Shown: piece after piece, positions 145 through 60,200 of the stretch
How positions within the stretch are numbered: the stretch's first letter is position 1
How the letters are laid out: each line of letters starts with the position of its first letter
Assembly: GCA_019459525.1 (NCBI GenBank)
Contig: JAIBEY010000031.1
Coordinates: forward strand, 1 to 64,000
Length of the DNA stretch: 64,000 bases
Direction: 5' to 3'
DNA from: Prolixibacteraceae bacterium
GTDB lineage: Bacteria > Bacteroidota > Bacteroidia > Bacteroidales > Prolixibacteraceae
The notes under the pieces: model-generated
Seen by the model: the letters and a program-made list of their open reading frames with translations, nothing else
What the model was told of the DNA's origin: nothing
The model's database searches: none
Made by a program: the position numbers and the translations under genes

Positions 145-783
145 CTAAAACCTGTATCCTAATGACAGACCGAAGCCCGTATTTTTTGCTGTTGCCTGAT
201 CCGCCGAAGAATTTTCATCTTCAGGATTAATATTGAGCATTCCGAACTGGGTGTCTAACTGCAAGAATAATCCACCTGCGGTTTCAAATCCGGCAAAAAT
301 GTTAGCGCCCGCATCCAGTGCCTTATAATCCACTCCCCGCTCAAAAGTTAAATCGTTACCTTCAAATACTTGCTTACCACTAATGCCATAAGCCAGGTAT
401 GGTCCAAAACCAAGCATAAAAAATCCGTTACCCAACGAAGCTTTGTAAACCAGATTTAAAGGCATTTCAATATAGTTGATCTTAATTTCGTCGGTAAATT
501 CGGCACCCAAAATGGTATAGGTATCTTTAGCACCTTTTGTGGCAAACATCAACCCGGGTTGAAAATAGAACTCCGGAGCGACCGGTATCTGAACGTTAAC
601 CCCGCCATGGAAACCCAATAGCATATCGTTTTCAAGTTTGTCGCCACTCGATAGTTTTCCGTTCAGGTTCTGGAAATTTACTCCACCCAATATCCCAAAT
701 GACATTTTTGATTTTTCCTGGGCAATCGCAAATGATGCCGAAAGCACAAGAATTAATACGATTGATACTAGTTTGTTTTTCAT
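145..783 (-). CDS. Outer-membrane beta-barrel protein (PorT/OMP_b-brl-like)
   Basis: This is a 212-residue protein with a Sec signal peptide (residues 1 to about 21, cleavage after ASFAIAQ). The mature part alternates short amphipathic strands with Gly/Asn turns and ends in the aromatic residue Phe (GYRF). These are the marks of an eight- to ten-stranded outer-membrane barrel of the 'outer membrane protein beta-barrel domain' type common in Bacteroidota. No enzymatic motif is visible. It lies 116 bases downstream of the OmpA lipoprotein gene on the same strand and probably shares its transcript. The start is the only ATG in front of the signal peptide. The family is clear, but substrate and role are unknown. 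Confidence 0.75.
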   Translation of the reverse strand: MKNKLVSIVLILVLSASFAIAQEKSKMSFGILGGVNFQNLNGKLSSGDKLENDMLLGFHGGVNVQIPVAPEFYFQPGLMFATKGAKDTYTILGAEFTDEIKINYIEMPLNLVYKASLGNGFFMLGFGPYLAYGISGKQVFEGNDLTFERGVDYKALDAGANIFAGFETAGGLFLQLDTQFGMLNINPEDENSSADQATAKNTGFGLSLGYRF

Positions 784-899: not shown

Positions 900-1571
900 T
901 TACTTTCCGGCTTCTTTTTCAGCTTCAGCTTTCATCTTTTCATTGGCGGTGATCAGGAATTCAACCCTGCGGTTTTGCGAACGGCCATCTTCGGTAGTGT
1001 TGTCGTATTTAGGCACATTTTCGCCAAATCCTTTGGTTCTGATCCTGCTGTTTGCTATTCCTTTATTATACAAATAAGCCGAGACTGCCCCTGCCCTGTT
1101 TTGAGATAAATTCTGGTTGTATGTTTCACTCCCTTTACTGTCGGTATGTCCCTGTATTTCGATATCCGTATCCGGATAGGTATTCAGGACTGTAACCAGT
1201 TTATCCAGATTGCTTTTAGCATCAGCCGACAGGTTCGAGCTATCGAATCCGAACAAAACGTTACTGCTGAATTCAACCACGATTCCCTCGCCAACCCGTT
1301 CCACCTTTGCATCAGGAACCGTCTTTTCTATTTCTTTGGCTTGTTTGTCCATTTTATTGCCAATCACCGCACCGGTAGCACCTCCAACAGTAGCTCCTAT
1401 AATGGCACCCAGACCGGTATTTCCAGCAGCCTTACCAATAATTGCACCCATTGCGCCACCAGATACAGCTCCAATAGCTCCACCCTTTTGCGTTTTGTTT
1501 AGCGAGGCGCAGCTCGAAAACAACAGCGCGGAACTTAGGATTACAACCATACTCATTTTAATTCGTTTCAT
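900..1571 (-). CDS. OmpA-family lipoprotein with glycine-zipper segment (YiaD-like)
   Basis: The protein has 223 residues. Residues 1-20 are a lipoprotein signal ending LLFSSC, so Cys20 should be lipidated. Residues about 29-73 are Gly/Ala-rich with GxxxG spacing (a glycine zipper, likely membrane-associated). Residues about 98-210 form an OmpA C-terminal peptidoglycan-binding domain with the full signature GHTDSKG, NLSQNRA, GFGE and GRSQNRRVEF. This matches YiaD-like proteins that tether the outer membrane to peptidoglycan. It is the first gene of a leftward unit driven by the promoter element at 1672-1737, about 100 bases upstream of the ATG, and is followed by the barrel gene at 145-783. 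Confidence 0.9.
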   Translation of the reverse strand: MKRIKMSMVVILSSALLFSSCASLNKTQKGGAIGAVSGGAMGAIIGKAAGNTGLGAIIGATVGGATGAVIGNKMDKQAKEIEKTVPDAKVERVGEGIVVEFSSNVLFGFDSSNLSADAKSNLDKLVTVLNTYPDTDIEIQGHTDSKGSETYNQNLSQNRAGAVSAYLYNKGIANSRIRTKGFGENVPKYDNTTEDGRSQNRRVEFLITANEKMKAEAEKEAGK

Positions 1572-1671
1572 GATTTCTTTTTTTATGGTACTATGATTTG
1601 TGTAATGCCGTTCACCTGTCAGCTATTTCATTGCTGTTCTATTGACAGACAAACACACATTTATATCGGTG

Positions 1672-1737
1672 TAAAGATCGGCTCATTAAACCGTTCAGGT
1701 GTTACATAACTATGGGTATAAGTTACATGATTCACAC
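1672..1737 (-). promoter_or_regulatory. Two-part regulated promoter, copy A (leftward)
   Basis: On the minus strand GTGTGAATCATGTAA (1737-1723) is followed by 13 bases and then TTATGTAACAC (1709-1699). A GATCTTTA -7 core (1679-1672) lies 24 bases from the element's end to its TTTA. The same layout and spacing occur at three other promoters in this window. ATGTAA is repeated directly with 21-base spacing, about two helical turns, as expected for a dimeric activator. The ATG at 1571 is about 100 bases downstream. It is back to back with copy B, 29 bases apart. Confidence 0.75.
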
Positions 1738-1766
1738 ATTTCGGGCACCCCAAAATGAGTTTAGAT

Positions 1767-1832
1767 GTGTGAATCATGTAAGTCTTATTTGGAATTATGT
1801 AACACGTTGCGTGCACGAATCCGCCACCTTTG
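1767..1832 (+). promoter_or_regulatory. Two-part regulated promoter, copy B (rightward)
   Basis: GTGTGAATCATGTAA (1767-1781) is followed by 13 bases and TTATGTAACAC (1795-1805). A CACCTTTG -7-like core (1825-1832) has its TTTG at bases 24-27 past the element. The csbD-like ATG at 1869 is 36 bases downstream of the core, the same leader length as copy C. It forms a divergent control region with copy A. Confidence 0.75.
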
Positions 1833-1868
1833 TCGGGTGAAAATGATTTCACAACTAGAACAAATAAA

Positions 1869-2054
1869 ATGAATACTACAGGATTACAAGGAAATTGGGA
1901 AGAAATAAAGGGTAAGCTCAAACAAAAATTTGCCATATTAACTGATAATGATGTATTGCTTCTTGAAGGCAAAAAAGAGGAAATGCTTGGAAAACTTCAA
2001 ATCAAGTTGGGCAAAACGAAAGAAGAATTGCAGAAGATTATTTCTGAATTATAA
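1869..2054 (+). CDS. CsbD family stress-response protein
   Basis: A 61-residue soluble, highly charged helical protein with no signal peptide. It starts with the family hallmark LQGNWEEIKGKLKQKF, followed by a D/E-rich turn (LTDNDVLLLEGK) and two Lys/Glu-rich helices. CsbD-like proteins are small general-stress proteins in many bacteria, with unknown molecular activity. I chose the ATG at 1869 because residues before it do not fit the family, and because the promoter core at 1825-1832 would otherwise overlap the coding region. It is the first gene of a two-gene unit with the TSP3/OmpA porin 33 bases downstream. Confidence 0.85.
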   Translation: MNTTGLQGNWEEIKGKLKQKFAILTDNDVLLLEGKKEEMLGKLQIKLGKTKEELQKIISEL

Positions 2055-2087
2055 CCAGCACAATATTAACATAAAACCACTACAAGT

Positions 2088-3425
2088 ATGAAAAAATTAC
2101 TTTTACTTTCATTGATTTTAGCTTTTACGGCTAGTTTATATGCCCAGACAATCGACAAAAAATGGGGATTGGGTCTGGGTGTAGGTGCTTACGGAACAAA
2201 TGCCAGGGATGGCGGCGTAGGTTTTATGCCTGAACTCTATTTAAGCAGGTATCTTTCCCCTCGATTGGATTTAATGCTAAAAGGTGATGTCGGCTTATTC
2301 CGGTCCGATCTCGTAAACAATCTTGATATGGTCAACCCTTTCATCAATTTACGTTACAAGTTTAGTGATGAAACTAAAAATTTCCGTCCCTATGTATATG
2401 CCGGGCCAGGTTTTTTATGGGATAATGCTGAAACAGGATTGAACTTCGACGCAGGTTTGGGAAGTAAATATTACATGAATCAGAATACCGCCTTTTATGC
2501 TGAAGTAGGTTATATTCACTCTATTGATGTAGTTAGAAGCGGGATAAATTTAAATGACAAATTTTTAAAAGCAACAATTGGTATCGAATTCGACTTTGGA
2601 AAAACCCCGGATAACGATATGGATGGTGTTTCAGACCATAAAGATAAATGCCCCAATACACCTGCCGGAGTTGCAGTTGACGCCAATGGCTGTCCGATTG
2701 ATACCGATGGCGATGGTGTAGCCGATTACCTGGACGATTGTCCAACAGTTGCCGGGTTAACATCGCTGAAAGGGTGCCCCGATGCCGACGGTGACGGTGT
2801 GGCTGATAAAAACGACAAATGCCCCGACACGCCCAAAGGATGGAAAGTGGATGACACCGGATGCCCGCTCGACCAGGATAAAGACGAAATTGCCGATGCC
2901 ATAGACAAATGTCCGGATACTCCCGATGGAATTGATGTGGACAAAAACGGTTGCCCGGTTGATACCGATGGTGATGGCGTTGCCGATTACCTGGACGGAT
3001 GCCCAACAGTTGCCGGTCCTAAAGAAAACAAAGGGTGTCCGGTAGTTGAAAATGCTGCTGAGGAAACAATGACAGCGCCGGAAATGCAAGTCGAGCCGGT
3101 TTATTTTGGCTACGACAAAGCCACCTATCTTTCAGGTGAAAAAGCAAAAATCGACAAGCTGGTTAAAATACTAAAAGCTGACAACAACTTAAAGGTAAAC
3201 TTAACCGGAAATGCCGACAGTAAAGGTACAGCAGAATATAACATGACACTGACCGAAAAACGAATCGATTCGGTTGTGAAAACCATCCAATCGGGTGGAA
3301 TTCCGGAAGAACGCATTTCGAAAGAAAAGGCGCTTGGTGAAACAAAACCTGCTGCCACTAACGATACGGAGGAAGGTCGCGCCTTGAACCGCAGGGTAAC
3401 TTTCGAAGTCATAAAAACAAAATAA
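2088..3425 (+). CDS. OmpA-family porin with thrombospondin type 3 repeats (OprF-like)
   Basis: The protein has 445 residues. It starts with a Sec signal (cleavage near LYAQ, residue 20), then a beta-barrel of about 145 residues (about 21-165). Residues about 172-300 hold five Ca-binding TSP3-type repeats such as DTDGDGVADYLDDCP, each with the paired CP...G turn. Residues about 325-445 form an OmpA C-terminal domain. The usual GHTD motif reads GNAD, but the Asp, the LTEKR arginine and the GRALNRRVTF end that contact peptidoglycan are kept. The protein should anchor the outer membrane to the wall across a rigid calcium-stiffened linker. It lies 33 bases after csbD with no terminator between, so both probably use promoter copy B. 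Confidence 0.9.
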   Translation: MKKLLLLSLILAFTASLYAQTIDKKWGLGLGVGAYGTNARDGGVGFMPELYLSRYLSPRLDLMLKGDVGLFRSDLVNNLDMVNPFINLRYKFSDETKNFRPYVYAGPGFLWDNAETGLNFDAGLGSKYYMNQNTAFYAEVGYIHSIDVVRSGINLNDKFLKATIGIEFDFGKTPDNDMDGVSDHKDKCPNTPAGVAVDANGCPIDTDGDGVADYLDDCPTVAGLTSLKGCPDADGDGVADKNDKCPDTPKGWKVDDTGCPLDQDKDEIADAIDKCPDTPDGIDVDKNGCPVDTDGDGVADYLDGCPTVAGPKENKGCPVVENAAEETMTAPEMQVEPVYFGYDKATYLSGEKAKIDKLVKILKADNNLKVNLTGNADSKGTAEYNMTLTEKRIDSVVKTIQSGGIPEERISKEKALGETKPAATNDTEEGRALNRRVTFEVIKTK

Positions 3426-3457
3426 TAAGTCAATCAATAATCAATCAATTCAGTGTT

Positions 3458-3493
3458 AAAGTTCATGTCAGATTCTGGCATGAACTTTTTTTT
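3458..3493 (+). terminator. Rho-independent terminator after the csbD-ompA unit
   Basis: AAAGTTCATG pairs with CATGAACTTT across an 11-base loop, and the stem runs into eight T. It sits 33 bases after the porin stop codon and before promoter copy C, separating the two units. Confidence 0.85.
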
Positions 3494-3518
3494 GTCCTAA
3501 ACTATTGATTTCCAAAAC

Positions 3519-3584
3519 GTGTGAATAATGTAAGTCTATGTTCGAATTGTGTAACACTTCCCGCAATTTATAGGCTCAACTTTG
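3519..3584 (+). promoter_or_regulatory. Two-part regulated promoter, copy C (rightward)
   Basis: GTGTGAATAATGTAA (3519-3533) is followed by 13 bases and TTGTGTAACAC (3547-3557). A CAACTTTG core (3577-3584) again places TTTG at bases 24-27 past the element. The ATG at 3621 is 36 bases downstream. The layout is identical to copies A, B and D. Confidence 0.75.
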
Positions 3585-3620
3585 TCCCTAATCATTTCTA
3601 TACTTAAAAAAAAACTGAAA

Positions 3621-5738
3621 ATGAAAAAGCTAAAACTATTAGCAACCCTTGCTCTGGCATCGGTTATTTTTATTACTGGGTGCAAAAAAGATGACTATAA
3701 GGAAAAGGTTGGTGTCTGCCCGCTGGTGGTCTCAACAATTCCAATTGATAAAGCCATTGATGTACCCCTCGACCAGGTAATTTCGGCTACCTTCAACGAA
3801 AAGATGGATCCTGCAACTATAAACCAGGCATCTTTTATTATTCAACAAGGAACTACCGCTATTACAGGAACAGTTGCCTACAGCGATTTAACTGCAACTT
3901 TTAGCCCCACAAGTCCACTTTTGCCTAATGTGCTCTATTCAGGAACGATTAAAACACTGACAAAAGATTTACTGGGACAATCCTTAATGGAAGATCACAA
4001 GTGGTCGTTCACAACCATTGCTCAGGTTACTTTATCATCCAATCCTGTTGCAGGTGGAACAACAACCGGTGCCGGCACATTTGCCAAAGGCGCTTCGGTT
4101 ACAGTTGCTGCCACCCCGAGCGTGGGTTATGCTTTCGCCAACTGGACTTTAGATGGAATTCCGGTTTCAACAACGCCTAATTACCAGTTTATAATGGATG
4201 GTAATAAAGCTTTGGTCGCAAACTTCTCGTTCCAATTTGCAGTTGCACTGTCATCGAATCCTGTTGAAGGTGGTATTACAACCGGTGCTGGTTCATATAC
4301 CGCAGGCACCAATGTAACTGTTACGGCAACTCCAAATACCGGATATACTTTTGTGAATTGGACAGAAGGCCTGACCATAGCATCTACCGAGGCTAATTAT
4401 GCGTTTCAGTTAAATGCAAGCAGAAATCTGGTTGCAAATTTCGTATTGAATACCTACACATTAACTGTAATTGCATTGAACGGAACTGTATTAAAAGTTC
4501 CGCTACAAACAACTTACAATCACGGAACAGTGGTGAATTTAACTGCAACTCCAAATTCAGGATATAACTTTACATCATGGACCGGAGATGCAAGTGGTTC
4601 TTCAAGTGCAACAACCGTTACAATGAATTCGAATAAGAATGTAACTGCCAACTTTAATGCTATAGCCTACACCTTAAATGCAACTGCCGTAAACGGTACT
4701 GTTTTAAAAGTACCGAGCAAAACAGCTTACAATAGTGGCGAGATTGTAGTTCTTACTGCTACGCCTGCAATGGGTTATACATTTACGGGATGGAGTGGAG
4801 ATGCATCCGGGTCAATAAATCCAGTGTCGGTTACCATGAACGGGAATAAGAACATCACTGCGAACTTTACTGCATTGGCTAGCACTTTTACTTTAAATGT
4901 AGTTGCAGTAAATGGTATGGTTGTTAAAAATCCGAATCTGACGGCTTACAATAATGGGGCTTCAGTGCAGCTTACCGCTTCAGCAAATTCAGGATTTACA
5001 TTTACCGGATGGAGTGGTGATGCTACGGGTAATTTACCTACTGCAACAGTCATCATGAATTCGAATAAAAACGTCACCGCTAATTTTATCGCTGACGTAA
5101 TACCTCCTGTAGGAATGTTACCAATCGATCTTAGTTGCGTTGAACCGTTTGCAATACTTGCAGGTTCAACCATTGTCAGCACTGGTCCTTCAATCGTCAA
5201 TGGAGATATGGGATTAAGTCCAGGATCAGCATTGGTTGGTTTTCCCCCAGGAATAAACAATGGAACGATTCATATAGACCCAGTTGCCGCTGCTGCAAAA
5301 CTTTGTTTAACTGCTGCTTATATTGAAGGTCAAGGCAGATCTTTAAATCGGATTTCATTGCCCGGACAACTCGGAGGTCTTACTCTTGCCCCTGGATTGT
5401 ATTCTAACTCATCAACAACCGGAATATCAGGAACGGGAGCAAACGGGATTTTAACACTGGATGCACAAGGTGATGCAAATGCAGTCTGGATTTTCCAGAT
5501 TGGATCTACATTTACTACAGATCCTGCTACCAGCGTTGTTTTGTCGGGTGGCGCACAAGCGAAAAACATCTTTTGGATTGTTAGTTCTTCAGCAACACTT
5601 GGAACAACCTCTGTTTTATACGGAAACATTCTGGCCGATCAAGCCATCACGCTCAATACCGGTGCGGTACTTTACGGAAGAGCTTTGGCAAGAATTGCTG
5701 CTGTTACCTTAGATGCCAGTACAATTACAAAACCATAA
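3621..5738 (+). CDS. Lipoprotein with Ig-like domain, five InlB-type B repeats and an ice-binding-like (DUF3494) domain
   Basis: The protein has 705 residues, with a lipoprotein signal ending FITGC near residue 21. Residues about 30-135 form an SbsA/Big_5-type Ig domain (STIPIDKAIDVPLDQ...). Five repeats of about 70 residues follow (about 137-490), each with a GYxFxxW core and a closing (V/I)xANF. They resemble divergent InlB B repeats that build stiff stalks. The C-terminal about 205 residues (from LPIDLSCVEPFAILAGSTI) match the ice-binding-like DUF3494 beta-solenoid, including the VNGDMGLSPG and VLYGNILA stretches. It is probably surface-exposed, as an adhesin or ice/ligand-binding tip on a stalk. 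The upstream ATG-less extension is rejected because it overlaps the -7 core. It is co-transcribed with the gene 13 bases downstream. Confidence 0.85.
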   Translation: MKKLKLLATLALASVIFITGCKKDDYKEKVGVCPLVVSTIPIDKAIDVPLDQVISATFNEKMDPATINQASFIIQQGTTAITGTVAYSDLTATFSPTSPLLPNVLYSGTIKTLTKDLLGQSLMEDHKWSFTTIAQVTLSSNPVAGGTTTGAGTFAKGASVTVAATPSVGYAFANWTLDGIPVSTTPNYQFIMDGNKALVANFSFQFAVALSSNPVEGGITTGAGSYTAGTNVTVTATPNTGYTFVNWTEGLTIASTEANYAFQLNASRNLVANFVLNTYTLTVIALNGTVLKVPLQTTYNHGTVVNLTATPNSGYNFTSWTGDASGSSSATTVTMNSNKNVTANFNAIAYTLNATAVNGTVLKVPSKTAYNSGEIVVLTATPAMGYTFTGWSGDASGSINPVSVTMNGNKNITANFTALASTFTLNVVAVNGMVVKNPNLTAYNNGASVQLTASANSGFTFTGWSGDATGNLPTATVIMNSNKNVTANFIADVIPPVGMLPIDLSCVEPFAILAGSTIVSTGPSIVNGDMGLSPGSALVGFPPGINNGTIHIDPVAAAAKLCLTAAYIEGQGRSLNRISLPGQLGGLTLAPGLYSNSSTTGISGTGANGILTLDAQGDANAVWIFQIGSTFTTDPATSVVLSGGAQAKNIFWIVSSSATLGTTSVLYGNILADQAITLNTGAVLYGRALARIAAVTLDASTITKP

Positions 5739-5751
5739 ATTATAAAAGTAT

Positions 5752-7806
5752 ATGAAATCTATTATTAATTTCAAAAAGGAATCGTGCATTGCGCGGTTCC
5801 CTAACCTGATTGTTAAAAGTGTTATTGTCGGTACTTTAATGTTGACTGCTATTCATTCACCGCTTCAGGCACAGGAAGCACAGAAGGCTAAGTTTACGAA
5901 ACCTTCCTGGTGGTTTGGAGCCGCTGCAGGAGCAAATTTCAACTTTTACCAGGGTACCACCCAGCAATTGACAACAGACTTCATCGTCCCAACTGCCTTT
6001 CATGATGGTCAGGGAATCTCACTTTTTGCTTTTCCAATTATGGAATTCCATCGCCCTGGTACAAGATTGGGCTTTATGCTTCAGGCCGGATACGAGAGCC
6101 GCAGGGCTACCTGGGAACAGGTAACAACTCCCTGTAACTGTCCGGCAGATTTAGAAACGAACCACCTTGCATACATCACAGTGGAACCAAGTATCCGCAT
6201 TGCCCCGTTTAAATCAAATTTCTACATTTATGGCGGACCTCGTTTGGCATTCAATGTTGACAAACGGTTCTTATACGAACAAGGTATTAGTCCCGATTAC
6301 CCAAACGTTCCTGCCAGACCGGATGTAAACGGAGTATTTAGCGACATGAACAAATCCGTTATCTCGATGCAAGTCGGCGCCGGATACGACATCTCGCTTT
6401 CTGCAGATAACAAACAGAATCAAGCTGTTCTTTCTCCTTTTGTTGCTTTTCATCCTTATTTCGGACAAGACCCGCGTTCAATCGAATCATGGAACCTGAC
6501 CACAGTAAGAGCTGGTATTGCACTTAAGTTTGGCCGCGGCAAAAAGATAGCGGTACCTGAAGAGGCTATCGTACCTATAGCTGTTGTTTCAACTGTTGAA
6601 CCTGATGTTACGTTTGCAGTTGCTGCTCCAAAAAATGTTCCGGCCGAACGTCAGGTAAGGGAAACATTTCCACTTCGCAACTATGTATTCTTCAACGAAG
6701 GATCTACTGAAATTCCAAGTCGTTACGTATTACTTCGCAAAGATCAGGTAAAAGAATTCAGGGAAGATCAACTGGAAGTATTCACTCCCAAAGATTTGAA
6801 TGGCCGTTCAAAACGCCAGATGACTGTCTATTACAACGTTCTGAATATTCTGGGCGACCGTATGATGAAAAATCCTACTTCGACTGTCACCATGACAGGA
6901 TCATCAATGGAAGGTACTGCTGATGGAAAAGCAATGGCTGAATCGACCAAAACATATTTGGTGGATGTATTTGGAATTGCTCCTGCAAGAATAACAACTG
7001 TAGGTCGAGTAAAACCAGTCATCCCATCGGAACAGCCAGGTGGGCAACTTGAATTGACACTTCTTCGTGAAGGAGACCGCAGGGTTTCTATCACAAGCAA
7101 TTCTCCCGAATTACTGATGGAATTCCAGAGTGGTAACGATTCACCGCTGAAGCCAGTGGTCATCAAAACCGTTCAGGAAGCACCGCTCGACAGCTATGTT
7201 TCTTTCGCCAACACGGGTGCCGATCAGGTATTCACTTCATGGAACATGGAAATTGCTGATGAACAGGGTAAGGTTCAGAAATTTGGACCGTATTCAAAAG
7301 AGAATGTCAGCATTCCGGGTAAAACCATTTTAGGTACCCGTCCTGAAGGGGACTACAAAATCACGATGATTGGCCAAACCAAGAGTGGCAAGGTTTTAAA
7401 GAAAGAAACCAAAGCCCACCTGGTACTGTGGACTCCATCGAAAGACGAAGAAATGATGCGATTCAGCGTGCTGTACGAATTTAATAACTCAAAGGCCATT
7501 GCTGTGTATGAAAAATACCTGACAGAAGTTGTGATTCCAAAAATTCCAACTGGTGGAACGGTTATTATTCACGGGCATACCGATGTTATCGGTGGTGAGG
7601 AAAACAACCTGAAATTGTCGTTGGCCCGTGCAAATGATGTAAAAGGTATCTTGGAAAATGGTCTGTCAAAGGTTAGTAGAACCGATGTTAAATTTGAAGT
7701 ACACGGATTTGGCGAAGATCAAAATTTAGCTCCTTTTAACAACAAATATCCGGAAGAACGTTTTTATAACCGATCGGTAATTATTGACATTATTCCAGCG
7801 AAATAA
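5752..7806 (+). CDS. Large OmpA-family outer-membrane protein
   Basis: The protein has 684 residues. The signal peptide ends near LQAQ (residue about 41). Residues about 45-260 look like an outer-membrane barrel (WWFGAAAGANFNFYQG..., closing at VRAGIALKFGRGKK). A PEEAIVP-type linker and a long middle region of about 300 residues follow; I cannot assign the middle region. The last about 115 residues are an OmpA C-terminal domain (IHGHTDVIGG, LSLARANDV, HGFGED, RFYNRSVIID). It should bind peptidoglycan and sit in the outer membrane. It lies 13 bases after the ice-binding-like lipoprotein gene, implying one transcript and perhaps one complex. A hairpin at 7833-7866 ends the unit. Confidence 0.85.
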   Translation: MKSIINFKKESCIARFPNLIVKSVIVGTLMLTAIHSPLQAQEAQKAKFTKPSWWFGAAAGANFNFYQGTTQQLTTDFIVPTAFHDGQGISLFAFPIMEFHRPGTRLGFMLQAGYESRRATWEQVTTPCNCPADLETNHLAYITVEPSIRIAPFKSNFYIYGGPRLAFNVDKRFLYEQGISPDYPNVPARPDVNGVFSDMNKSVISMQVGAGYDISLSADNKQNQAVLSPFVAFHPYFGQDPRSIESWNLTTVRAGIALKFGRGKKIAVPEEAIVPIAVVSTVEPDVTFAVAAPKNVPAERQVRETFPLRNYVFFNEGSTEIPSRYVLLRKDQVKEFREDQLEVFTPKDLNGRSKRQMTVYYNVLNILGDRMMKNPTSTVTMTGSSMEGTADGKAMAESTKTYLVDVFGIAPARITTVGRVKPVIPSEQPGGQLELTLLREGDRRVSITSNSPELLMEFQSGNDSPLKPVVIKTVQEAPLDSYVSFANTGADQVFTSWNMEIADEQGKVQKFGPYSKENVSIPGKTILGTRPEGDYKITMIGQTKSGKVLKKETKAHLVLWTPSKDEEMMRFSVLYEFNNSKAIAVYEKYLTEVVIPKIPTGGTVIIHGHTDVIGGEENNLKLSLARANDVKGILENGLSKVSRTDVKFEVHGFGEDQNLAPFNNKYPEERFYNRSVIIDIIPAK

Positions 7807-7832
7807 GATTTTCGGTCAATTAGCAACCTTAT

Positions 7833-7866
7833 AAAGAGGCTGGACTCAGTAGAGTTCGGCCTCTTT
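7833..7866 (+). terminator. Hairpin, likely terminator after the large OmpA gene
   Basis: AAAGAGGC pairs with GCCTCTTT, and an inner GACTC...GAGTT pair extends the stem. It begins 27 bases after the stop at 7806. The T-run is short, so termination strength is uncertain. Confidence 0.65.
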
Positions 7867-7931
7867 GGCGTTTAAACAGTCCAGATCCAACCAATCCTTC
7901 CTTATCAAGGACCAACAAAAGATCTAGAAAT

Positions 7932-7997
7932 GTGTGAATTATGTAACATATATACAGAGTTGTGTAACACTTATGATGCCAAAGTTGCCCAAATTCG
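7932..7997 (+). promoter_or_regulatory. Two-part regulated promoter, copy D (rightward)
   Basis: GTGTGAATTATGTAA (7932-7946) is followed by 13 bases and TTGTGTAACAC (7960-7970). A weaker CAAATTCG core (7990-7997) keeps the same register, 24-27 bases past the element. The ATG at 8025 follows 27 bases later. Confidence 0.7.
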
Positions 7998-8024: not shown

Positions 8025-8843
8025 ATGAAAAACACATTCCATGTCCTCGTGTTCTCTTCCCTGATTCTTAGTTTTTCACTGCTGTCATGTGGTCCAGGCA
8101 AAAAATTACTGAGTTCAAGAGCCAACGTTGAAAATTTACGAATAGACAGCTTAAATACTCACAATCAACTGGATAAATGCAACACACTCGTTCAAAATCT
8201 GAATGAAGAGAAAACATCCTTGCTAAAAGAGAAGACATCTTTACAGAACGAAAATTTGTCGGTTGCAAATGATTTAAAGGCACTTTCGGCAGAATCGAAA
8301 ATGACTATTGCCGATCAGGCGAGGCGGTTAAAAAGCCTTCAGGATATGATTCAGGCCCAAAAAGATGTGATGGATAATCTGAAGAATTCTATTGCTGATG
8401 CGCTGATGAAATATAAAAGCGATGAATTGTCGGTTTATATTAAAGATGGAAACGTGTATGTTTCGCTGGCAGAAAAATTGCTCTTCAAATCGGGAAGCGA
8501 TGTGGTTGATCCAAAAGGAAAAGAAGCGCTTTCGACACTTGCAAAAGTACTTTCGAACACCAAAGATATTACCGTTCAGATTGAAGGACATACAGACAAT
8601 GTGCCTATCAAGACCAATAAATTCAATGACAATTGGGACCTTAGCACATCAAGGGCAATTTCAATTGTGCGTATCCTGACAAAAGACAACGGCTTTGATT
8701 CAAATCGGATTACAGCATCGGGCAGAGGCCAGTTTTTTCCTGTTCAAACCAACGACACCGCTGAAGGACGCGCAAGCAACCGCAGAACTGAAGTTATTCT
8801 GTCGCCCGACATGAAAGAACTTTACAATCTTTTATACAAGTAG
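8025..8843 (+). CDS. OmpA/MotB-type lipoprotein with coiled coil
   Basis: The protein has 272 residues. The lipoprotein signal ends LLSC (Cys about 22). Residues about 35-125 are a heptad-rich coiled coil (NVENLRIDSLNTHNQLDK and following). Residues about 145-265 form a complete OmpA/MotB domain (IEGHTDNVPI, WDLSTSRA, SGRGQFFPV, GRASNRRTEVIL). It would span the periplasm from the outer membrane to peptidoglycan. It is the first gene of a three-gene unit under promoter copy D, with the next gene starting only 2 bases after its stop. Confidence 0.88.
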   Translation: MKNTFHVLVFSSLILSFSLLSCGPGKKLLSSRANVENLRIDSLNTHNQLDKCNTLVQNLNEEKTSLLKEKTSLQNENLSVANDLKALSAESKMTIADQARRLKSLQDMIQAQKDVMDNLKNSIADALMKYKSDELSVYIKDGNVYVSLAEKLLFKSGSDVVDPKGKEALSTLAKVLSNTKDITVQIEGHTDNVPIKTNKFNDNWDLSTSRAISIVRILTKDNGFDSNRITASGRGQFFPVQTNDTAEGRASNRRTEVILSPDMKELYNLLYK

Positions 8844-8845
8844 TC

Positions 8846-9376
8846 ATGATAAAGTCGTTAAAATTTATTGCTATCGGGATCCTGTTTTTCTTAGCACACG
8901 CAGGCCAGGCGCAAATATCGGTGAATGTAAATCTGGGAGCTCCTCCGCAATGGGGCCCTGCCGGATATAATGATGTTCAGTATTATTACCTTCCAGATGT
9001 TGAAGCTTATTACGATGTTCCATCTTCGAAGTTTATTTATTACAGTGGCGGAACATGGGTGCGTCGGGCAACACTTCCAAGTCGTTACAGAACCTACGAT
9101 CTTTACAACGGATACAAAGTAGTGATGACCGATTATCGCGGAAACACTCCTTACACTCATTTCAAAGAGCATAAATCGAAATATGCCAAAGGGTATCGCG
9201 GTCAGCCTCAAAAGAACTACGGTGAACGTCCTGAACACAGAAATTCTAATGAAAGAGAATATTCAAAAGGGCACGATAATCAAAAGTACAGCCAGAGTCG
9301 TGACGGTGGCGGGAAACATGGCGATTCAAACAATAAGAATTCTAGCTATGGTCATGGAAACGGCAAAAGGAAATAA
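8846..9376 (+). CDS. Secreted protein with basic low-complexity tail, function unknown
   Basis: The protein has 176 residues, with a Sec signal (about 1-22, ending GQAQ). Residues about 23-105 are a Tyr/Pro-rich compact region (YYYLPDVEAYYDVPSSKFIYYSGGTW). Similar small exported proteins are frequent in Bacteroidota, but I know no function for them. Residues about 110-176 are a disordered Lys/Arg/Gly/Asn/His tail. It overlaps nothing and starts 2 bases after the OmpA lipoprotein stop, so translation is probably coupled. The basic tail could bind acidic cell-surface polymers (inference). Confidence 0.7.
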   Translation: MIKSLKFIAIGILFFLAHAGQAQISVNVNLGAPPQWGPAGYNDVQYYYLPDVEAYYDVPSSKFIYYSGGTWVRRATLPSRYRTYDLYNGYKVVMTDYRGNTPYTHFKEHKSKYAKGYRGQPQKNYGERPEHRNSNEREYSKGHDNQKYSQSRDGGGKHGDSNNKNSSYGHGNGKRK

Positions 9377-9421: not shown

Positions 9422-9964
9422 ATGAAAACAAAAATCTTTACATTGGCATTGCTTTCCCTGTTTTTGATCGTGGGGACAAATTTATCTGCTCAAAAAAGAA
9501 CAGGCTCTGAGAGTTATAAAGGCTTAAACTTAGGTTTAGGAATTGGCGGATACTCAGGTTACTACGGATATGTAGGGCATACTTTGCCTGTTTTTAACAT
9601 TAACTATGAATTTGATGTGGCTCCAAGTTTTACTTTGGCTCCATTTGTCTCTTTTTATTCTTATAGAAATGACAAATACTATTACAATGAAACAGTAATA
9701 CCAATTGGTGTTAAAGGTAGTTACTACTTCGATCAGATTTTAAATGCCAATTCAAACTGGGATTTTTATCTGGCAGGTTCATTGGGATTCGCTGTCGTAA
9801 ACTCAAGATGGGACAGTGGCTACACCCGTGGCGATTATTACGATAAAGTAAATCCATTATTTCTTGATTTACACATCGGAACTGAATATCATTTAAGCAA
9901 TAAAGTTGGACTATTCCTTGACCTCTCAACAGGTGTTTCAACAATTGGATTGGCCATACATTAA
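9422..9964 (+). CDS. Small outer-membrane beta-barrel protein
   Basis: The protein has 180 residues, with a Sec signal ending LSAQ (residue about 24). A run of Gly/Tyr-rich alternating strands follows (LGLGIGGYSGYYGYVGH, FTLAPFVSFYSYRN, VGLFLDLSTGVSTIGLAIH). The pattern is that of a small outer-membrane barrel, though the C-terminus ends in His rather than an aromatic residue. It is the last gene of the copy D unit, 45 bases after the preceding gene and ahead of a strong terminator. No ligand can be predicted. Confidence 0.65.
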   Translation: MKTKIFTLALLSLFLIVGTNLSAQKRTGSESYKGLNLGLGIGGYSGYYGYVGHTLPVFNINYEFDVAPSFTLAPFVSFYSYRNDKYYYNETVIPIGVKGSYYFDQILNANSNWDFYLAGSLGFAVVNSRWDSGYTRGDYYDKVNPLFLDLHIGTEYHLSNKVGLFLDLSTGVSTIGLAIH

Positions 9965-10107: not shown

Positions 10108-12405
10108 CTAATTACTGGCGTTTGAAAACGAATAGGGAAAACTCTCGGGCAAGGCTCCTCGCAATGGATTAGGAGCCTGCTTCATTTCGAATTGCAATTT
10201 TCCACCTTTCTGTATATCGCTGTGCATGATATAGTTTTTATCGTACACTTTTCCGTTGAACAGAATTCTGTCAACATACACATTTTCTGAACTGTTTGCC
10301 GGAGCGCTAATCTCAAATTCCTTCCCATTCTCGAGCGTAAGTGTCACCTTCTTGAATAGCGGAGAACCGAAAACATATTCCCCGGTTCCCGGAGCTACCG
10401 GGTAAAAACCCATGGCCGAAAAAACATACCAGGCCGAAGTTTGCCCGTTATCTTCGTCGCCACAAAGGCCATCGGGGTTTGGCGTATAAAGTTTATCCAT
10501 CACCTTGCGCACTTTTTCCTGAGCTTTCCAGGGCTGCCCAAGGTAATTGTACAAATAGATAGCGTGCTGTACAGGCTGATTTCCATGTGCATATTGCCCC
10601 ATGTTTGAGATCAGCATTTCGGTAATTTCATGAATCTGGCGTTTATAATACGAGTAGTCGAATGTTGGTGCGGTTGTAAACACTTCATCCAGACGTTCGG
10701 CCATTTTTTCGCGACTTCCCATTAAATTGGCCAATCCCTGCGGATCGTGAAGCACGCACCAGGTCCAGTGCCAGCTTGAGCCTTCAGTAAAAGCATCTCC
10801 CCATTTATCGGGCCTGAAAGGCGACTGAAATGTGCCATCGTCGTTTCGGCCTCTCATAAAATTCACCGTGGGATCGAAAACATTCCGGTAGTTCAGCGCC
10901 CGCTTTCCAAAACGATTGATTTCGTCCTGTGGGCGACTCAATTCTTTCGCTAACTTCCAGATGCACCAATCGGCATATGCGTATTCCAGCGTACGGGCAG
11001 TGTTCTCTTTAACCCCCACATTGTAGGGGATGTAACCCAATTGGTTGTAGTATTTAACACCGTAGCGGCCAACCGAATGAAGTGGTCCTTCGCTTTCGGT
11101 ATTTTTCAGGATGGCTTCATACAATTTTCCGATATCAAACCCACGGATTCCTTTCAGATAAGCATCAGCAATATTGACAGCCGAGTTCGACCCAATCATA
11201 CAATTCCGATGCCCCGGACTGGCCCATTCGGGAAGCCAACCACTCTCGTCGTACGCATTGGACAGTCCTTCCATTATTTGTGAACTGAGCGAAGGATGCA
11301 TCAGCGTGAAAAATGGAAATACAGCACGGAAAGTATCCCAGAAACCATTGTCGGTGAACAGGTATCCCGGTAAAACTTTTCCATTATACGGACTGTAATG
11401 AACGACTTTATTCGTTGCATCGAGTTCGTAAAATTTGCGCGGAAAGAGCATGGTTCGGTAAAGAGCTGTGTAAAAAGTACGGTTTTGGTCGGCCGTTCCA
11501 CCTTCTACTTTTACCCGATCAAGCTCGCTGTTCCAAACCGCTTCAGCTTTGGCTCTGGTTTGATCGAATGTATTTTGTCCGATTTCTCTTTCCAGATTAA
11601 GTTCAGCTTGTTCAAGACTAATAAACGACGAAGCTACTTTGGCATGAACGACCTCACCCTTTTTAGTTCTGAATGAGAGCATTGCCACGACATGATTTCC
11701 TTCGGCAATTGCATTATTCGTTAATACACTGTCTTTCCAGGTCGAAAATTCACTGAATTCTTTATCAAAAACAATAACAAAATAGTTGTGGAAATTATCA
11801 GGCACTCCCCCATCGTTGTTGCGGCAATAACCCGTAATTTTTCTTTCCTGAGGTGATATTTTCACCATCGATCCCTTGTTAAAAGCGTCAACCAGAATGT
11901 GAGATGAATTGGATTCAGGAAAAGTGAATCGAAACTGGGCAGCGCGTTCGGTGGGTGTGATTTCGGTTGTTATGTCGTAATCGGCCAGATAAACTTTGTA
12001 ATAGTGTGGTTTTGCAATTTCGGCCTTGTGCGAAAACCACGACGCCCGTTTATTCTCATTGACGATTGGTTCTCCGGTTTCAGGAAATAATGAAAAGGCC
12101 GCATAATCGCCAATCCACGGACTGGGCTGGTGCGTTTGTTTGAATCCCCTGATTTTTACATCGTCGTACATATACGTCCAGCTATTCTCCATTTGGTTGG
12201 TTTGCGGAGTCCAGAAATTCATCCCCCAGGGCAGGGCAATGGCCGGATAGGTATTTCCGTTCGACAATGCCCGGTTAGAGTCGGTTCCCACCAATGGATT
12301 AACCAGCTCAACCAGTGAGACTTTCGGGTTATCCGATTGCTGGCCTAAAGACAGGGACGGAATAAGCAGAATAGATAACAAAGGAATGATAGAAAAAATC
12401 TTCAT
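10108..12405 (-). CDS. Glycoside hydrolase family 92 alpha-mannosidase (variant subsite motif)
   Basis: The protein has 765 residues with a Sec signal ending SLGQ. It shows the GH92 fold markers: N-terminal NPLVGTD...YPAIALPWGMNFWTPQT, GFKQTHQPSPWIGDYA, FWDTFRAVFPF, FTEGSSWHWTW with Glu541 as likely general acid, and GLCGDEDNGQTSAWYVFSAMGFYPV near the C-terminus. GH92 enzymes are calcium-dependent exo-acting inverting alpha-mannosidases. The HGNEP motif common in alpha-1,2 enzymes reads HGNQPVQH here (Gln610), so the linkage preference probably differs from the second GH92 at 16304-18571. It is the most distal gene of the leftward PUL, 69 bases after the GH106-related gene, and is secreted or periplasmic. 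Confidence 0.92.
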   Translation of the reverse strand: MKIFSIIPLLSILLIPSLSLGQQSDNPKVSLVELVNPLVGTDSNRALSNGNTYPAIALPWGMNFWTPQTNQMENSWTYMYDDVKIRGFKQTHQPSPWIGDYAAFSLFPETGEPIVNENKRASWFSHKAEIAKPHYYKVYLADYDITTEITPTERAAQFRFTFPESNSSHILVDAFNKGSMVKISPQERKITGYCRNNDGGVPDNFHNYFVIVFDKEFSEFSTWKDSVLTNNAIAEGNHVVAMLSFRTKKGEVVHAKVASSFISLEQAELNLEREIGQNTFDQTRAKAEAVWNSELDRVKVEGGTADQNRTFYTALYRTMLFPRKFYELDATNKVVHYSPYNGKVLPGYLFTDNGFWDTFRAVFPFFTLMHPSLSSQIMEGLSNAYDESGWLPEWASPGHRNCMIGSNSAVNIADAYLKGIRGFDIGKLYEAILKNTESEGPLHSVGRYGVKYYNQLGYIPYNVGVKENTARTLEYAYADWCIWKLAKELSRPQDEINRFGKRALNYRNVFDPTVNFMRGRNDDGTFQSPFRPDKWGDAFTEGSSWHWTWCVLHDPQGLANLMGSREKMAERLDEVFTTAPTFDYSYYKRQIHEITEMLISNMGQYAHGNQPVQHAIYLYNYLGQPWKAQEKVRKVMDKLYTPNPDGLCGDEDNGQTSAWYVFSAMGFYPVAPGTGEYVFGSPLFKKVTLTLENGKEFEISAPANSSENVYVDRILFNGKVYDKNYIMHSDIQKGGKLQFEMKQAPNPLRGALPESFPYSFSNASN

Positions 12406-57216: not shown

Positions 57217-60200
57217 CTAATATTCAACGCCTGAAATCGCTACAGGTCCAAACAAACCTGAAGGCTGAAGCGGGCTTTGAGCGTTATAGGTATTTACCGG
57301 ACACCAGGTAGGCCGTTGATCAACAGGTAATTTACTGTCGCCGATCAGACGATTCACCCAGGTATTAACCACCTCGATCTTCAGCTCGTTTTCGCCAGCC
57401 TTAACCAGTTTGGTGATATCAAGCTGGTAAGGTGCTGTCCAGACTCCACCGGCATACGTGCCATTGACCATCACTTTGGCCATTGCTGTTAAGTTGCCTA
57501 GGTTGATTACAACTGCTTTTCCTTCGGGCAACTGATCCAAACTGAATTTACAGGTGTAGAAAGCCGTTCCTGAATAATATTTGATTTGCTCGTTGGAAGA
57601 AGTTGTCCAGTCCTGAAGTGTTTCAAAAATCACCGGATCCTTCGGACCTCGTTTCGATGCGTCAAACTGAACAGTCCACGGGCCTTTCAGGTCGGCCAGA
57701 ATTGTAGCTTCAGGATAATTCGCTTCGACTCCACTCGCTGCTGCTTGTCCACCTTTTCCACGGAAGACGATAAATACGCTTTCGTAAGGCGCCAGTTTTA
57801 ACGGAACGGCAGTCGCATTTTCTTTCTGTTCGTACGCCGGGAGCTTCCGCATATTTCCGGTGGTGGCTTCCCAAAGTTCGGGCAGTAATCCTTTTACCCT
57901 GAATTCAGGAGTGATCAGTTTGGTTTCTCCGGTTTGGTTCGTCACAAAATAGATCTCTCCATTTTTCATGGTGCGGTGGCCGTAATGGATCGTACGATCT
58001 TCAGGTAATTTACAGTCAGCAATGCAGTTGATTTGCGCAAAAGCTTCTTCCATGCTCAGGCCGTTCATCACCCTTCCCTTTCCAACATTCCTGAATTTTA
58101 CGTTTACGCCATCCACTTCGCCCCATAACTCGGATGCCAGTTTCACGACTTCCTGATCGGCCGTCGGTTGGTTCTGCAAGCTGGGCGAACGTTTGGGGGC
58201 GGGGCCCAACACAACAGCTCCTTCATTGACCAGCTGCTTAATTTTGCCCAACAGTTCAGGACGCATGGTTTCAAGTTTGGGCAAAACCAAAATCCGGTAC
58301 TGGGTTCCGTGCGGCAAAGTAATCAGGCCGTCTTTTACGGTCATGTATTTTTCGATCACTTCGGCATTCATGTAATCGAACTGGTAACCTACCGGAAGCG
58401 CCGGATCGGCAACACCGGTCATTTTGGGGGCATCTTCGCCAATGAAATAAGCCACATCCGCCACATTCAATCCCTGCTGAAGCATAAAATTCGAACGTTT
58501 CAGGTATTGGGTATATACATCCATCTGCGAAAACCAGGTATTTTTCCGGTTGAATTCATTTCCAAACCAGGCATTCATCCCTGGATTTTTATCCTCGTAA
58601 GGCTGGGTGATGTAAACGTGAAGCAGGGTATTGTTGATTCCTTCGGCAAAAAACCGATCTCCGCGCTGCTTAATTACCGCGGGATAACGCGCAAACGGAG
58701 ACCCGGCGCAAGTATTGGATTCAGCTGAAATTTTTGTTTTTCCGTAGATATGACCACATGAAGTAGCTGCCCGGTTTTCAATGTCTCCGAGCTCGCCTTC
58801 GCTCCAGAATTCGCCGCCAATTTCGTCGGATTGCCCGCCATACATCAGGAATTCGCCCGGGAAACCCCAGTGTCCGTAGTTTTCGAGCCAGGTATGCAGC
58901 CCGTGTTTGTGGCTGGCTTCGCGCAAACCACCCACATAATCGTAGGCAACCTTGTCGGCAACCATGCGGCGAACATCCCACAAAAAGCGGTCGGACTCCA
59001 GTTGGCTGTTTACCACAAAACCTTTGTAAACCGGCAAATAAGGAATCGGATCGTAACCATACCGCTGTTTAAATTCTTCCAGAAAACCATCCGTAAAGTT
59101 CTGTCCTCCGGTTTCGTAACTATCCTGAACCACCACTTTAAAACATTTGCGGTCGGCTTCGGGAATGCGTCTGAGTATTTCGCCCATGTGCCCGTCGAAA
59201 TGCATGGCCGCATGTTTTTTGCTCATCTTGTCGGCTTCGTACCCGGTAGCTTCAGGCGATGCCGGAGCATTTTTCGTTCCGGTCGGTGTCATTCCGGTAC
59301 GCAAAATAACCCAATCCCCTTCGGGAACGTCCCAGTTTAAAGTTCCGTCGGCTGATAAATGCTGCGAAATATCCATCACTTTCGCAGCGTCAATAACGGT
59401 GGCCTGATCATCGGGTTCAGGCTGTTGCGGCCATTGATAATCGTGCCAGTAAGGCAGTGGAGTCGGATGCATTTTAGCCAGCGTTTTTTCGACATAGCGT
59501 TCAACACACGGAGATGCTGAGAGCACCACTTCAGCCAAGCCGCTGTTCGGATTGGTATTTTTGATGATCAGGCGGAAATGGCTGGCAGTGGTTGCCGGAA
59601 ACGAAACCACGACCGGCGCAAAGGGATCAAACCCAACATTGAGCGCCGGATTGGAACGGTTGATCTGAAACTCAGAAAGATTGCGGAATGTCCCGTCAGC
59701 TTCTTTCACCTGAAGGACAGCGTTTGTCAGCATCGGGCGTTCAGTCGGACGAACAGAGAGACTGCGCGCAGTAAACGGCACCTGGGCTTCCACATCAATA
59801 GCAAGTTCACCTCCTACCGGAAAACTGATGCCGGTTTTAATATCACCGTCGGCAACTTTTGTCAGATCAGTCACACGCGGTGTTGACGTAACTTTTCCGT
59901 TTTGGATATTCAGAACAAGCTGATCGTCTTTAGGCGCCGGATAAGCAATCACTTTAACATCCTGAAATATTTCGATTGGTTTTTCCAGTTTCTGACTGAA
60001 CTTTTGTGGCCCCTTCACACGAAGTTCCGAAGTGGCCAGGTAACGCATGGCGGCATCGGCGCCCACCCACGGACCTCCCGACTGGCTCCATCCGGGAGAA
60101 TTGAAAATCCCGATTTCTATATTCAGTTCGGTGGCTGTTTTCAGCGCAGCGTGAAGGATATCCCACCACTCTTCGCTGAGCATTTTTACCTTTCCGTAGG

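Follow-up and report, generated by a model that had tools for sequence, protein, structure and literature searches.

A direct-repeat promoter element in a Prolixibacteraceae genome most likely marks an HMA-domain AraC-type regulon with metal and stress branches

The stretch analysed here (the window) comprises the first 64,000 nucleotides (64 kb) of contig JAIBEY010000031.1 (C105) of a Prolixibacteraceae bacterium (assembly GCA_019459525.1). Four of its promoters share a two-part element: GTGTGAATNATGTAA and TTRTGTAACAC separated by 13 variable bases (N13). Our analysis indicates that these promoters most likely belong to a direct-repeat regulon of HMA-domain AraC-type regulators, which is split into a metal and a stress branch. 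The element probably serves as operator for a small activator of the AraC family that has the HMA copper-chaperone fold (CopZ/Atx1) in its N-terminal domain. The window encodes no regulator for the element, as a preliminary description had held, and the best candidates for its promoters are most likely, judging from sequence, the HMA-AraC proteins encoded on another contig, C113. What began as four look-alike promoters is in this way extended to a widely distributed regulon for which a candidate regulator and a predictive 73-base model are available. The regulon offers a candidate heavy-metal regulator for many Bacteroidia, a handle on how the phylum Bacteroidota runs stress regulation, and a testable case of a metal sensor that would have taken on a different input while largely retaining its operator. 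(Numbers with G, C and L denote genomes, contigs and loci, respectively.)

The pattern has exactly four matches in the window, with the positions and strands of the preliminary description (listed below), and none in dinucleotide shuffles (0/100). The ATGTAA/RTGTAA half-sites form a direct repeat at 21 bp, that is, the two helical turns proposed earlier, and the cores TTTA, TTTG, TTTG and TTCG start 24 bases past the respective elements. In the whole genome (5.54 Mb, 116 contigs) there are 18 sites with at most three mismatches to the 39-base pattern, and none for the reversed pattern. A looser scan of C113:5001-104665, the window and C66:90001-110000 gave 22 sites (17 on C113, four in the window and one on C66), which can be aligned without gaps. 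A 73-position sequence-only model trained on these 22 aligned sites returns, in the genome-wide scan that had been suggested, 25 matches at E<0.01 (C113, 20; window, 4; C66, 1): the 22 training sites and three weaker ones. The next match has E=0.24, and the rest of the window beyond the four elements contains no operator match with this model. An abundance of matches in coding DNA, named beforehand as the outcome that would speak against the element, did not materialize, as 19 of the 22 elements lie outside any called open reading frame. One overlaps a frame by 15%, at a regulator stop codon, and the two at window positions 1699-1737 and 1767-1805 are scored inside a called 91-aa frame (1661-1936, minus strand); this frame runs antisense to the Pfam-supported CsbD gene, and we therefore take it to be spurious.

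The sites have a consensus of approximately AAATGTGTGAATNATGTAACT..TT......AATTNTGTAACAC, followed by about 20 weakly conserved bases and then AnnTTTG; the half-sites and the -7 box account for most of the conservation, and spacer and flanks differ between copies. The register between element and core is fixed, with the TT of the -7 box at one offset in 22/22 sites (against a median TT count of 2 across all offsets tried). The A of AnnTTTG is present in 18/22 sites, the G in 68% and the leading T in only 32%, so that the box is an AnnTTTG-like form of TAnnTTTG, the flavobacterial sigma-A -7 box according to the available text of PMC9723704. No conserved -33 box is found in the 22 aligned sites, consistent with the earlier suggestion that none is needed, and the direct repeat of about 21 bp lies beside or over the -33/-35 position, as in operators of the AraC family.

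The genome encodes four HMA-AraC paralogues of about 186-203 residues with an AraC-type carboxy-terminus, all within the site cluster of C113. The gene for one of them, AraC1 (C113:33031-33639), lies behind a site and ahead of the genes for a 944-aa PAS/hybrid histidine kinase and a 143-aa receiver protein (the core operon). The same order of HMA-AraC, hybrid kinase and receiver is found in G015, G100, G134 and G030 (65-82% identity), and a called site precedes the regulator in G015, G100 and G134. The cultured environmental relatives Sunxiuqinia indica (L212) and Flavobacterium fluvii (L215) likewise have the core operon. Extending the scan to 295 Bacteroidia genomes, as had also been suggested for relatives, we found the regulator in 153 and at least one site at E<=0.01 in 132. 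With a site at E<=1e-3 and a regulator profile match at E<=1e-20, 92 of the 295 genomes have both, 12 the site only, 61 the regulator only and 130 neither (Fisher p 4e-22). This survey scores at most 16 site matches per genome, and its regulator alignment (A2) includes one unrelated 437-aa AraC protein that is absent from alignments A3, A5 and A6.

The association also holds at the level of individual loci. Of the 30 best regulator loci, 24 have a site at E<=1e-3, as do 23 of the 40 next-ranked. In loci of named relatives, a site with a matrix score >=20 lies within 3 kb of the regulator gene in 66/80 cases, compared with 0/80 in the reversed sequence; in a second set of 69 regulator loci the corresponding numbers are 50 and 0. 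Other AraC genes have no site in 19 loci (16 distinct places).

In many loci the operator overlaps the stop codon of the regulator gene. In 39 of 73 loci scanned at a score >=14, a site occupies the 3' end of the regulator gene, and in 33 of these it overlaps the stop codon with an identical offset; 17 loci have a site at most 145 bp upstream of the regulator. Raising the score to >=20 leaves 32, 27 and 17, respectively, and the reversed sequence of the same 73 loci gives no match at either score. At this offset the TRA of TGTRAAT doubles as the stop codon, TGA or TAA, with the operator directed towards the following gene. The 80 loci of named relatives include 18 with such a 3' site (17 at the identical offset) and 24 with a site within 200 bp upstream. 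The window's own genome provides an example in AraC3 (C113:58854-59414), whose last codons, Val-stop (GTGTGA), begin the next operator (59405-59473). This anatomy argues for a direct relation between regulator and site, and common descent of the regulator gene and its flank contributes to the arrangement.

The domain composition of the regulator is that of an AraC-type protein with an unusual amino-terminus. HTH_18, the AraC/XylS carboxy-terminal helix-turn-helix domain, is over the Pfam cut-off in all four paralogues, and among PDB chains the regulator sequence profile matches those of XylR, SoxS and AraC. In an AlphaFold model of the L208 regulator (mean pLDDT 89, 37 rows), an E-H-E-E-H-E domain is followed by a linker helix and then the AraC domain; the first of these has the beta-alpha-beta-beta-alpha-beta fold of the HMA/CopZ domain. 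Foldseek places AraC-family structures on top, including MarA, AraC and SoxS. Its lower matches include the copper chaperones Atx1 and HAH1 and the gold-binding GolB, over about 65 columns at E 0.08-0.17. The matches 2xmv, 4a47, 2roe, 4y2i and 1fee have TM scores by target of 0.64-0.74, with E-values in this range of 0.08-0.17 that are weak by themselves.

The regulators can be divided into two branches based on an N-terminal cysteine motif. Among 153 regulators, 35 are MVCxRC-like (CxxC), 117 are MVSxRC-like (SxxC; 115 of 151 distinct, as two SxxC loci are duplicates) and one is neither, proportions that are not population estimates because the loci were chosen as best-scoring. The CxxC pair with which HMA/CopZ domains bind metal is present in the 35 loci and absent from the SxxC branch. 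The core-operon regulator is SxxC and its paralogue AraC2 is CxxC; AraC4 (C113:78876-79436, L062) is diverged, with FDINTACK in place of the MVSxRC motif. The neighbours of the two branches differ as well. A regular expression for GM[TS]CxxC-type proteins, applied to 900 nt on each side, finds a heavy-metal protein next to 19/35 CxxC regulators and 0/115 distinct SxxC regulators (p 6e-15); the remaining 16 CxxC regulators include AraC2. The CxxC neighbours that were checked are CopA-like P-type ATPases and HMA-MauE proteins. Eight such neighbours, all partial proteins, were compared with NCBIfam and four of these also with Pfam: CopA is the best NCBIfam match in 5/8, Pfam HMA is over its cut-off in 4/4, no copper-specific NCBIfam model reaches its cut-off in the eight, and the three HMA-MauE neighbours are not copper-specific.

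SxxC neighbours, by contrast, include CsbD and CsbD-like proteins, outer-membrane barrels, a Big_5 protein like that of the window, and the core kinase. A CsbD-like neighbour is found for 25/117 SxxC versus 1/35 CxxC regulators, one query (the L169 protein) being itself below the Pfam CsbD cut-off. The kinase count (49/117 SxxC versus 0/35 CxxC) is biased and is not relied on here, because short loci (<=2.8 kb; 24/35 CxxC and 18/117 SxxC) cannot show the kinase segment used. A quickly built tree requires two changes of the Cys/Ser label, against a shuffled mean of 31.9, and places all 19 metal-linked members in a single branch of 24. Since this tree has no outgroup, two long rows and many open forks, it speaks for few Cys/Ser changes and not for their direction. 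Operators of the metal branch resemble those of the window and differ in detail (TgTAAATctTacAA versus GTGtGAAT.ATGTAA).

In the mechanism that we infer, two HMA-AraC subunits would sit on the same face of the DNA, one on each direct repeat, with the promoter-proximal repeat in the position of the -33 box. From that position the bound activator could therefore touch the housekeeping sigma factor or RNA polymerase and recruit it, in a class II-like manner, to promoters that offer AnnTTTG only. One paralogue heads the hybrid-kinase and receiver operon behind its own operator, and all four paralogue genes are located on C113 among the putative targets. In the window the targets would be envelope and stress-type genes (CsbD, OmpA, glycine zipper and ice-binding-like). 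The CxxC relatives appear often to be placed so as to control heavy-metal genes (CopA-like, HMA-MauE). The SxxC branch, which predominates here, has probably exchanged metal sensing for kinase input, and the layout of the core operon suggests that its kinase and receiver feed the SxxC regulator.

Parts of this arrangement are familiar from other systems. According to the available text of PMC3878776, AraC-type regulators of Bacteroides have predicted motifs in which directly repeated sites are spaced 21 bp apart on average, which suggests dimers on one face of the DNA two turns apart. The hybrid two-component systems (HTCS) treated in the same text likewise combine an AraC-type domain, a direct repeat of about 21 bp and a hybrid histidine kinase in Bacteroidota. 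However, an HTCS unites sensor, kinase, receiver and AraC domain in one protein and targets glycan-use genes, whereas here the AraC protein and the 944-aa kinase are encoded by separate genes, the AraC protein carries an HMA-like domain, and the putative targets are of envelope/stress type or metal-related. The regulator shares HTH_18 and the profile and fold matches described above with the AraC, MarA, SoxS and XylR activators. It differs from them in its HMA/CopZ-like N-terminal domain; the usual N-terminal domain of the AraC family is a sugar-binding cupin. It is like the copper chaperones CopZ and Atx1 in the Atx1-like fold of its model and in the many CxxC members located beside CopA-like or HMA-MauE genes, and unlike them in that the SxxC branch lacks one cysteine. 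Known copper-responsive regulators are CueR, CsoR and CopY.

The regulon resembles general stress responses, such as those of sigB, rpoS and PhyR/EcfG, in that a single site cluster contains CsbD, YtxH, ferritin-like and BrkB genes as well as envelope genes, a gene content that suggests a stress function. General stress responses rely on an alternative sigma factor, unlike the housekeeping-type -7 box and activator found here. As a tentative idea, which we regard as rather less than probable, the system might be a widespread Bacteroidia stress/envelope regulon, a functional counterpart of the sigma-based responses of other phyla, run by a formerly metal-sensing AraC protein that, after loss of a cysteine, came under the control of a hybrid kinase and receiver. 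Sister regulators with a closely related operator would still control copper export, and many members would have their stop codons built into their own operator. A literature search, mostly of papers accessible without subscription, revealed, among the papers listed, no HMA-AraC regulator and, for Bacteroidota, no AraC copper regulator or CsbD/YtxH stress regulon.

Several observations weigh against an HMA-AraC regulon of this kind. Eleven genomes with sites at E<=1e-4 lack a full-length regulator even by a 33-row profile, and several of them are 98-99% complete; one of the eleven, G273, has at least 16 sites. Within the genome studied here, AraC4 has no site beside its gene, AraC2 keeps CxxC with no metal gene nearby, and any of the four paralogues may be the acting one. 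Pfam HMA scores 19.6 bits on AraC2 (E 0.0012), short of the 24.8 cut-off, and has no match in the N-terminal pieces of the two other paralogues tried. The E-values of the model are rough, and weak site matches (E 0.001-0.01) may be due to chance. Finally, the regulator loci are the best-scoring ones, not a random draw, and two of them are present in both locus sets (L168/L255 and L169/L246).

The regulator-less genomes also speak for a rival in which the sites are AraC-type operators, but the actor at the stress cluster is another AraC-family regulator sharing the site, with HMA-AraC as an auxiliary or one of several. The C113 cluster does contain a 437-aa protein whose HTH_18 match is weak and below the cut-off, and six of the eleven genomes (G273, G133, G126, G206, G064 and G089) have only a generic AraC-domain match. 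The other five (G220, G168, G096, G005 and G288) have no match at E<=1e-6. However, generic AraC genes have no site in the 19 loci mentioned above, seven of which come from regulator-less genomes, and draft assemblies tend to break in these regions. Only in G220 is the lack of a regulator explained, by a core-kinase orthologue that ends exactly at the contig end, beyond which the regulator gene would lie; a contig of G168 may start inside its kinase gene; and contigs C24 and C46 of G273 start nearly alike, including a site (323 of the first 330 bases are identical), a sign of assembly breaks. Ten G220 and G273 proteins, a small part of the clusters, were scanned and have no DNA-binding domain. 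We consider a shared site under another AraC-family regulator unlikely.

The preliminary description had proposed a dimeric activator, and in outline an AraC-type direct repeat bears this out. Its further suggestion, binding of the repeats by a LytTR-type or other response regulator, is not supported. A 21-bp direct repeat also suits LytTR regulators, the genome has 15 LytTR genes, and the core operon encodes a receiver protein. None of the 15 genes lies on C113 or C105, though, and on this linkage a LytTR regulator was rejected; the core-operon receiver was rejected as DNA-binding regulator since it is receiver-only by Pfam, and a 219-aa receiver of G220 likewise has no DNA-binding domain. 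The sites follow the HMA-AraC genes across the class. Because the element tracks HMA-AraC both within the genome and across Bacteroidia, we favour HMA-AraC and regard a response regulator as very unlikely. The clustering of most sites on no more than two contigs could also be expected of a dispersed repeat, such as a mobile or duplicated promoter cassette, in place of a maintained operator. Spacer and flanks are unlike between copies, on which ground such an origin was rejected, and the same pattern recurs at the regulator stop codon in distant relatives; a dispersed repeat is thus extremely improbable.

If HMA-AraC is the regulator, its putative targets in the window are the genes that the four operators face. 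The features are as follows.

145-783, minus strand: outer-membrane beta-barrel protein (Pfam), possibly on the same transcript as the 900-1571 gene (co-transcription inferred)
900-1571, minus strand: glycine-zipper and OmpA-domain protein (Pfam), putative target
1672-1675, minus strand: -7 core TTTA in the fixed register (site alignment)
1699-1737, minus strand: operator, exact match, facing the 900-1571 gene (pattern scan and 73-position model)
1767-1805, plus strand: operator, exact match, facing the CsbD gene (pattern scan and 73-position model)
1829-1832, plus strand: -7 core TTTG (site alignment)
1869-2053, plus strand: CsbD-like stress protein, 61 aa (Pfam PF05532, E 3.5e-13), putative target
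2088-3425, plus strand: beta-barrel, TSP3 and OmpA protein (Pfam), likely on the CsbD transcript (co-transcription inferred)
3519-3557, plus strand: operator, exact match (pattern scan and 73-position model)
3581-3584, plus strand: -7 core TTTG (site alignment)
3621-5738, plus strand: protein with Big_5, InlB-like repeats and ice-binding-like region (Pfam), putative target
5752-7806, plus strand: OmpA-domain protein (Pfam), likely on the same transcript as the 3621-5738 gene (co-transcription inferred)
7932-7970, plus strand: operator, exact match (pattern scan and 73-position model)
7994-7997, plus strand: -7 core TTCG (site alignment)
8025-8843, plus strand: OmpA-family protein (Pfam), putative target
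8846-9376, plus strand: uncharacterised protein (no Pfam family), with homologues also among sites in G220 and G030
9422-9964, plus strand: uncharacterised protein (no Pfam family), with a homologue also in the G220 site cluster

Elsewhere in the genome, the genes after or among the C113 sites (32.9-104.6 kb) include CsbD, YtxH, ferritin-like, M48 peptidase and L,D-transpeptidase genes. The cluster also holds MlaE/ABC/MlaD, BrkB, Omp85, glycosyltransferases and a cation P-type ATPase, as well as kinases, receivers and a CheB-CheR-PAS protein. The latter is a fusion protein (C113:55383-58298; L024:10383-13298), and distant relatives of it are found behind sites in G133 and G100. A 536-aa protein is encoded behind another site (C113:69352-70962, minus strand; L025:4352-5962). 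At the thresholds used it matches neither Pfam nor NCBIfam, and a 544-aa homologue (49%) lies among the sites of G209. The single C66 site faces a patatin-like gene.

In relatives, 135 sites with a score >=30 in 99 loci lead to 125 distinct first genes, of which 104 were scanned with Pfam, the 21 left out being the regulator itself. A total of 57 Pfam families occur among these 104; the most common are Ice_binding (13), OMP_b-brl (7), Big_5 (6) and OMP_b-brl_2 (6), followed by Cupin_2 (5), YtxH (4), MPI_cupin (4), YceI (3), receiver (3) and CsbD (3). The ice-binding-like type is thus the most frequent first gene after sites in relatives, and it is also the type of the window gene at 3621-5738. 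The sites of G273 (L152, L153 and L165) have a common unusual core, GTAATTTTGC.

C105, the contig of the window, and C113 may be neighbours, because site-bearing gene clusters include both the start of the former and the end of the latter. Positions 1-60 of the window, at the contig start, are a low-complexity A/T run, and the regulon genes of the window are adjoined by a glycoside hydrolase family 92 gene (10108-12405, minus strand).

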